Part shown: piece by piece, positions 25,034 to 28,049 of the stretch | Position numbering within the stretch: the stretch's first letter is position 1 | Layout of the letters: each line of letters starts with the position of its first letter | Origin: Planctomycetota bacterium | GTDB lineage: Bacteria; Planctomycetota; Phycisphaerae; Sedimentisphaerales; Anaerobacaceae | DNA: 51,541 nucleotides | Assembly (NCBI GenBank): GCA_014384025.1 | Contig: JACNGQ010000219.1 | Span: 1-51,541 of the forward strand | Direction of reading: 5' to 3' | Translations under genes and position numbers: made by a program | Notes under the pieces: model-generated | Told to the model about the DNA's origin: nothing | Databases searched by the model: none | What the model saw: only the letters and a program-made list of their open reading frames with translations

Positions 25034-25348
25034 TTACAGCCAGTCACCGGCCGGTATTTGATCCATCGCATGGCGCAGTACAGGATCAACATTCGTATAT
25101 ACCTTATTTGTCAGATCTGGTGAAGAATGCTCCAATAACTTCTGTGTGACAGCTGTGGATACGCCGTTCTGGGCAAGTACAGAGCCAAAGGTCTTGCGTA
25201 AATCATGAAATTTGAAATCATCCAAGCCAAGTTTCCGGCGTATCTGTTTCCATCTGTACCGGCTGAAATTATTATTAAATATGTTTTCTTGTTTAGCATC
25301 CAATCCGGAAACATATTTCTTCAGCTCAGTTGAATATAAGCATATATT
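25034..25348 (-). pseudogene. Tyrosine recombinase C-terminal fragment (copy 1)
   Basis: Only the last third of a phage-type integrase is present. The frame runs from just after a stop at 25351 through LKKYVSG and IFNNNFSRYRWKQIRRKLGL to the end at 25034, with TTG 25303 as the only plausible start. FHDLRKTF carries the HxxR box, LLEHSSPDLT the second His and NKVYTNVD the nucleophilic Tyr. The first catalytic Arg, the Lys and the whole N-terminal DNA-binding domain are missing, so it cannot recombine DNA alone. A nearly identical fragment lies at 40629-40895. Confidence 0.8.
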
Positions 25349-25738: not shown

Positions 25739-26986
25739 CTACTTGACCTCAGCCTTGATTTTCTCCATACGTTTGCGTACGTTCTTAAGCCGGTACTGAT
25801 CCGGCTCACGTATACCTTCACATATATCAAGACATTTCTCATAAGCCTCCAGGGCCTTTTCGATTTGCCCTAATTCTTCATAAGCACGTCCAAGACAATA
25901 ATGAGCATCATCGGATCCCTCCAGATGGCTAAATTCGCTGATATGTTTCAGGAAAGTGTCCAACATCTTGTCGAATTGCCCGATCTCCGGATAACACATT
26001 CCCACCATGTATAACATCTCCGCGCCAACCCGGCCGTTGTCCAGAGAACCATACTGTTCATAGCCCTGTTGATAGAGTTTCAATGCTTCGGTGTATTTCT
26101 TCTCCACGAACAACTGTCCGGCACGGTTGTATAGGGCTCGGCTTTCCTCGATGGCTTTTTCGTCGACGATGTTATAATCCGCCGGCACCTTAAAGGCATC
26201 AGAGGGAACCTCCTGATTGTATGTAAATGCCTGTGCATTCACACAGGGGTGCCCCTTCAACAACATCGTCGCTGTTTGAATCAATTTACTCTCATCATCA
26301 ACGACAATGGAATATGATGTATCAGAGGGATAGCTGCAGGTCACAAGGATCTGCTTCTTACCGGTGCTTGGATCATATTGAACTACCTGCTTCCAGTCGT
26401 CACTAAACTGTCGCAGAACCCAGAACATCTTACCAGTCAGCCAGGGACTGAACTCTGCACTCTTGTACCAGATTTGCAGTTCGGCAAAGTCAGAACCATT
26501 TACGATGTTGACGGATTTTTCTTTAGGTCGACACTCATACGCTGTTTTCCCCTCGACTATGACGATCCGTTTATCACATTCAAATCGCATCTTGAGTTCC
26601 TCAGAGTCCTCGGCGGGAAATTGGACCCAAAAGTCAAAATCCAAAATCTCAGGATCGGAGTCAGAACCCCAGAAACACTCTCCCTTTACGTGCAGCGTCT
26701 CAAGTTTCTGAATCGCTTCTATTGTCTGTTCGACCGCCCAAACCTCATTAGTCCCATGCATCCAAATTCCCAGCGTTACAGTCAAAATGACTAAGGCGGC
26801 TACGCTTGTTTTTATAATCCGGCTATTCATGGCTATTCTCCATACATTTAAGTTATTAACATTTTGTTGGTTTTTTCGAAATAGTTCTAATGCAGTCTCA
26901 AGAACCTGGTCATCCCTTTCAGGACAGGTTTGAAGCTCGGGTCCTCTGAGATACTGTTCCAGTTGTTGCTTTTTTCTGGATATCAT
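25739..26986 (-). CDS. Membrane protein with C-terminal TPRs, partner of the ECF sigma gene
   Basis: A 415-residue protein encoded 3 bases after the stop of the ECF sigma gene, so the two are translationally linked. A short cytoplasmic part (residues 1-55), a single membrane helix (about 57-76, TSVAALVILTVTLGIWMHG), then an extracytoplasmic domain (about 80-285) resembling the LolA/outer-membrane-lipoprotein-sorting fold seen in planctomycete sigma partners, and TPR-like repeats (about 290-405: ALYNRAGQLFVEKKYTEALKLY, AHYCLGRAYEELGQIEKALEAY). Position and topology suggest it restrains or informs the sigma factor, in place of a classic anti-sigma; this is inference. The last 12 codons (ending RMEKIKAEVK) recur as isolated remnants at 29661 and 35461. 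Confidence 0.8.
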   Translation of the reverse strand: MISRKKQQLEQYLRGPELQTCPERDDQVLETALELFRKNQQNVNNLNVWRIAMNSRIIKTSVAALVILTVTLGIWMHGTNEVWAVEQTIEAIQKLETLHVKGECFWGSDSDPEILDFDFWVQFPAEDSEELKMRFECDKRIVIVEGKTAYECRPKEKSVNIVNGSDFAELQIWYKSAEFSPWLTGKMFWVLRQFSDDWKQVVQYDPSTGKKQILVTCSYPSDTSYSIVVDDESKLIQTATMLLKGHPCVNAQAFTYNQEVPSDAFKVPADYNIVDEKAIEESRALYNRAGQLFVEKKYTEALKLYQQGYEQYGSLDNGRVGAEMLYMVGMCYPEIGQFDKMLDTFLKHISEFSHLEGSDDAHYCLGRAYEELGQIEKALEAYEKCLDICEGIREPDQYRLKNVRKRMEKIKAEVK

Positions 26987-26989
26987 TTC

Positions 26990-27529
26990 TTAAACCTCAC
27001 CATTCAGCAAAATTCGTAATTTCTCTAAGCTGTACCGGTACCGGCTTTGTACTGTATTGATCGATAAACCTTGTAGCTTTGCAATCTGTTTAAACTTCAG
27101 ATTGCCCCGTAAGTGCAAGGTAATGACTATACGCTGCTCATCTGGTAACTCATACAAAACCTGATGCACATGCCTTAATTCATCATTAAGCAGGACCCAT
27201 TGATCAGGCCTGTGTTCAGGTGAGCACACTTCTTGACACTCAGACAGCCTTTTGGTTGGTTTGGCGCTTTAGGCTTTTTTTAGGTTGTGCACTCGATTAA
27301 TCAGGCTTCTTACTAAATAGCCCTTGAGATTACCGTCCAAACGCAAGCGCGGAGCAGATTCCGCCAGGGATACAAAGATATCCTGTACAACATCTTCTAC
27401 TTGCTCACTGTTATTCACCAGGGCATAGGCAATTTTGAGCAGGTAATTCTTATACTTAACATAGGTGCGTACTAATACCTGTTCCTGTCCGTTCTTCAGT
27501 TTCCAAATAAGCAGCATATCCTCTATCAC
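26990..27529 (-). pseudogene. ECF RNA polymerase sigma factor split by an in-frame TAA
   Basis: Read from ATG 27529, region 2 is complete (LLIWKLKNGQEQVLVRTYVK, VEDVVQDIFVSLAESAPRL, LKGYLVRSLINRVHNLKKA). TAA follows at 27271-27269. The same frame goes on without a shift (SAKPTKRLSECQEV) into a full region 4 (LYELPDEQRIVITLHLRGNL, FKQIAKLQGLSINTVQSRYR) and ends at 26990. The stop falls in the flexible linker between the sigma-2 and sigma-4 domains. As one polypeptide it would be 179 codons, a normal ECF length. A GTG at 27229 could start region 4 alone. I read it as a nonsense mutant; read-through or two separately made halves are less likely. Confidence 0.75.
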
Positions 27530-27599
27530 AACGATCCTTTGAAAAGAATGATCATTCCTCTTAGTTATTACAATTCAAATGAATTTTTAGTCTAAACTG

Positions 27600-27905: not shown

Positions 27906-28049
27906 TTTGTCCAGATCCTGCCGCTCTTATTCATCATAGTCCGCACTTCATTCGGTCCTTTCTGACAATTTGGCAAAAACAGGACAGTCCTTCTGGTTCT
28001 ATATAGTCCTCTCAATTACTGATCCAGCTCAGACTCCAAAAGCGCCCTA

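Follow-up and report, generated by a model that had tools for sequence, protein, structure and literature searches.

The window, as we call the whole stretch of 51,541 nucleotides analysed here, quite likely carries one copy of an expanded operon family, made up of an ECF sigma factor gene and a membrane-partner gene, in which the sigma gene has acquired a recent nonsense mutation. Translation of the minus strand at positions 26990-27529 gave an ECF sigma factor of 179 residues with TAA as its codon 87. A single frame thus reads, in order, 86 residues, the TAA (27271-27269), 92 residues and the final stop. The sigma-2 half (27272-27529, minus strand, 86 aa) begins with a GTG at the usual start column of the ECF family and matches Pfam Sigma70_r2 over residues 23-82 (3.7e-11). 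The 92 codons after the stop (26993-27268, minus strand) comprise the remainder of the linker and sigma-4; Pfam Sigma70_r4_2 was recognised on 26990-27229 (8.7e-10) at residues 21-71 of a 79-residue piece, which correspond to residues 121-171 of the whole. Hence the earlier note, made from the letters alone, was right in its coordinates and frame, as the minus-strand translation confirmed, and in placing both domains in the same frame on the two sides of the stop. Because of the TAA at codon 87, the gene is not the single continuous ORF of an ECF (group IV) sigma factor. Frame slippage at the run of seven A residues preceding the TAA was considered and rejected: from codon 84 onward each of the two alternative frames, read unaltered, runs into a stop (after 12 and 34 codons, respectively), and therefore neither gets to the end of sigma-4. 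Homology to the sister gene described below keeps the original frame on both sides of the stop.

The closest relative of the gene, L016 in genome G017, shares 68% identity with it and is one unbroken frame. A maximum-likelihood tree of 48 sequences joined the two at 100/100, with end branches of 0.29 (window) and 0.24 (L016). In 89 genomes of the family, and in 161 of the order with the family counted in, L016 was the one close orthologue, and the remaining rows at E<=1e-50 showed 47-51% identity. At the stop position L016 has an arginine codon, and the codon-87 column holds a sense codon in 41 of 42 relatives without a mid-gene break and a gap in the other one. The family search at E<=1e-30 covered 61 genomes, of which 37 had a match, and returned at least 150 rows, the window included. 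Internal stops were present in 2 of the 150 matches listed, namely the window gene and G023:C73, and the latter stop sits at the C-terminal end right before the next gene; no mid-gene break other than that of the window was found among the 150 rows listed. Similarly, the own genome gave 42 matching ECF rows at E<=0.001, and the window gene was the only one with an internal stop (1/42). An intact orthologue together with an isolated broken copy, the pattern expected of a young nonsense pseudogene, was thus what we observed. Relatives in viral contigs were looked for and none was found, and a search of genome contigs gave only two distant ECFs (~30%). The PDB sequence matches of L016, 13 sequences, were ECF sigma factors and brought no gain over Pfam. 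The literature on sigma and anti-sigma factors in Phycisphaerae yielded nothing on the present subject.

The TAA might be absent from the population at large, as an error of the consensus or the assembly or as a minor variant among strains, and we consider this rather unlikely. The assembly does consist of 448 contigs with 4.39% estimated contamination, the A7 run lies right before the stop, and the remainder of the gene looks constrained. However, a homopolymer error would give a frameshift and not an in-frame stop with an unchanged flanking frame. Moreover, the next-best match in the own genome is only 49% identical, so that there is no near-identical second copy.

The two parts of the gene were further compared for signs of decay. 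On a fixed topology, the branch lengths of the window and L016 were 0.231 and 0.152 for codons 1-86, 0.343 and 0.365 for codons 88-179, and 0.288 and 0.239 for codons 108-179, and the window gene ranked 15th to 21st of 43 terminals by branch length; the post-stop values would not register a stop of very recent origin. The post-stop part thus carries no excess branch length compared with the sister, and the break therefore looks young. Window-L016 identity was 66% in sigma-4 and 76% in sigma-2; ranked by how far sigma-4 falls behind sigma-2, the pair came 8th among 199 close pairs. At nonsynonymous sites the two diverged by 0.291 after the stop and by 0.152 before it; dN/dS was 0.17 after the stop, and synonymous sites were saturated before it. 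There were no indels relative to L016 within the 179 codons, and third positions differed most (46 of the 94 differences after the stop, 45 of the 73 before). Polarised changes in the window and the sister numbered 6 and 5 in codons 1-82, 1 and 1 in codons 83-120, and 3 and 2 in codons 121-179. The six of the window in codons 1-82 include the GTG start, and two of its three in sigma-4 fall in columns that are 90% and 95% conserved. The window deviates at 10 of 49 conserved columns, the most of all 43 sequences, and the sister comes next with 7.

We did not take these figures as decay after the stop, as the higher post-stop divergence is common to both branches and the changes are too few to call decay. 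The post-stop pattern is compatible with any of three readings, a nonsense mutation of recent origin, an error in the consensus or a functional split, and it speaks against an old pseudogene. Besides the stop itself there is no positive sign of decay, which a young null allele and a working split would both predict. With L016 as the sole close orthologue found, the stop can be dated only loosely.

The earlier note had placed the stop exactly in the linker. To locate it structurally we modelled L016, the unbroken sister, with AlphaFold2 from 36 aligned members of the family (mean pLDDT 81.4, pTM 0.74). In this model a helix, which we take to be sigma-2.4, spans residues 68-89, pLDDT is below 50 at residues 90-106, and the next helix begins at residue 108. 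Codon 87 would thus belong to the final turn of this helix, about 3 residues ahead of the disordered linker. The stop does lie between the sigma-2 and sigma-4 domain matches, but according to the model it comes just before the linker and not within it. It had also been argued that most random nonsense mutations would hit a domain. Of the single-base changes that make a stop, 20-22% (window gene) and 19-21% (L016) fell within codons 83-120, and the mean over the 42 relatives without a mid-gene break was 24% (range 13-34%). About one in five random nonsense changes would therefore land between the domains, so the position of the stop is unsurprising and the argument carries little weight.

A working two-part ECF sigma factor was the other reading that had been proposed: sigma-2 would end at 27271, a restart at the GTG at 27229 would make sigma-4, and the halves would act together in this one lineage. 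Pfam recognises both domains, the post-stop part shows no excess branch length, and the possible restart codon (27227-27229, minus strand, codon 101) is in frame 40 bases past the stop. Natural examples of two-part sigma factors also exist, as described for SigO-RsoA (PMC10141391). The restart codon itself, however, proved to be nothing special. Its anti-Shine-Dalgarno pairing was -2.5 kcal/mol, close to the -2.0 that is the median of 2000 sites drawn at random from the window, as compared with -5.4 at the sigma gene's own start and -7.1 at the start of the downstream gene. In-frame ATG, GTG or TTG codons occur in the aligned stretch 88-113 of 28 of the 42 intact relatives, and a GTG at the same column occurs in 3 of the 42. 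L016 has a serine codon at this position.

The earlier note had itself said that close orthologues with an unbroken linker and no conserved restart codon would count against a split. L016, the sole close orthologue found, is of this kind, and the split is absent from all relatives examined. The stop also removes what is, in the modelled sister, the end of the sigma-2.4 helix. Passages of a study of engineered sigma factors point the same way: the split form of ECF20_992 depended on a binding pair to unite its inteins, and its halves gave output only at high expression when no interaction drove them together (PMC8566587). A functional split would mean that an ECF sigma factor needs no joined linker to work, and published passages make this unlikely. 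As we saw no clear independent sign of a working split, be it a relative that shares it, a start signal for sigma-4 or a partner that fits, we regard a two-part factor in this lineage as highly doubtful. The fresh mutation, which had been put forward as the simpler reading, is instead supported by the unbroken sister, the isolated break, the unremarkable stop position and the weak restart signal.

Readthrough of the TAA at some level, producing a little full-length sigma factor, seems extremely improbable to us. The frame is indeed open from the stop to the end of the gene, and the lack of excess branch length after the stop would suit such a product. However, TAA terminates 10 of the 22 long ORFs chosen in the window, and 41 of the 42 own-genome ECF rows manage without an internal stop.

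The downstream gene (25739-26986, minus strand) is an intact open frame encoding 415 aa, in which a short N-terminal part and one hydrophobic segment are followed by C-terminal TPR repeats (Pfam TPR). From gene order and topology, the product is a putative anti-sigma factor or sensor; Pfam and NCBIfam scans of its short N-terminal part gave no match to an anti-sigma family. At E<=2e-20, 15 of the own-genome ECF rows match, the window included. Gene order was examined at 44 loci, 15 in the own genome and 29 in relatives. At all 44, the window included, the ECF gene has behind it an ORF of 120 codons or more, whose hydrophobic segment begins somewhere in residues 48-74. The first start codon of the partner overlaps the ECF stop by four bases at 36 of the 44 loci, and the window shows a gap of +3. 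The operon in the window is one of about 15 paralogues, and its sigma gene most likely holds a young loss-of-function allele. It should be further pointed out that one of the 15 own-genome matches, at G000:C170:9588-10125, has a frameshift within its sigma-2 region and was matched as two rows (L015, L049). Hence, the window gene is not the sole broken copy in the genome.

Relatives of the partner were detected in other genomes at seven places (E<=1e-20). An unbroken ECF gene lies upstream of the partner relative at each of the six places examined (L081, L082, two in L083, L084 and L085; the seventh place is in G006). Three of these six ECFs match the window ECF at 42-46%. The other three are of a clearly different type, one being 23% identical to the window ECF and two giving no match at 1e-4, and Pfam recognised sigma-2 and sigma-4 in all three. 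The partner ectodomains also differ between the sisters: the window has TPR, and the partner of L016 (L048:5145-7862) is a protein of 906 aa in which PA14 matched below threshold. As the TPR partner has relatives behind ECFs from other clades and from a different ECF type altogether, these observations suggest that sensor domains were swapped among ECF operons. Two matches to the partner protein contain an in-frame TAG (G000:C322:6006-6821 and G069:C1:4133224-4134459).

Upstream of the ECF gene lies the palindromic element GGAATGATCATTC (27546-27558, minus strand), which is conserved in the alignment with L016. It occurs at two places in the genome, here and at C67:7408-7421, where it is found on both strands one base apart. 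The element is a possible regulatory site, such as an operator or part of a promoter. Beyond the downstream gene, at 25037-25303 on the minus strand, there is an 89-aa C-terminal fragment of a tyrosine recombinase (Pfam Phage_integrase, 1.3e-12). Genome G003 of the same genus has the neighbouring beta-lactamase-family gene, with two DNA matches of 81 and 84% that stop at window positions 28037-28045. No match to the ECF or the partner was found in the 14,001 bases read of the 21,264-base contig. In G003 the beta-lactamase-family gene is tandemly duplicated (G003:C466:15348-18605, L080), and the second copy consists of two matched pieces that meet near residue 350, apparently in different frames.

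With a recent nonsense mutation as the preferred reading, translation would end after sigma-2, and the resulting 86-residue fragment, though it may still touch RNA polymerase, would have no domain for recognising the -35 element. As a consequence, the regulon would be lost, along with self-activation if the operon has any, and the downstream membrane protein would be left without a working partner. According to passages of a review (PMC8103513), the linker of ECF factors reaches into the active site of RNA polymerase, and mutations in it impair core binding and open-complex formation to varying degrees. Since most other paralogues are unbroken, the loss of one copy is probably tolerated. As a nonsense allele the case matters little in itself; it illustrates turnover among about 15 close paralogues of one operon.

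Compared with other ECF (group IV) sigma factors that have a membrane partner, the window gene has the same composition of sigma-2 and sigma-4 only with a short linker, and the adjacent gene likewise encodes a protein with one N-terminal hydrophobic segment. It differs in that this copy is interrupted at codon 87 and the partner's N-terminal part matches no anti-sigma family. We know of no natural two-part ECF sigma factor, and full-text searches on split sigma factors or premature stops in ECFs gave no such case among the papers listed, judged by titles and the beginnings of abstracts. Two known systems nevertheless keep a two-part reading from being absurd, SigO-RsoA and phage T4 gp55 with gp33. 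SigO-RsoA resembles the window gene in having promoter-recognition regions on two polypeptides, and is described in the cited passages as sigma-2 and sigma-3 plus a separate sigma-4, in group III (PMC10141391). The window gene, in contrast, is one gene interrupted at a single point, in a single genome, and its relatives are unbroken. The T4 system is similar in that gp55, a sigma-2-like factor, functions with no sigma-4 covalently attached to it (PMC7892883). However, gp55 carries an additional helix-loop-helix, and its late-gene activation complex contains gp33 and the sliding clamp gp45.

The remaining comparison is with expanded paralogue families, in which nonsense or frameshift pseudogenes occur. 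The window gene differs from such pseudogenes in being without secondary decay yet. It resembles them in that one copy is cut, the downstream gene is intact, and another paralogue (C170) is frameshifted.
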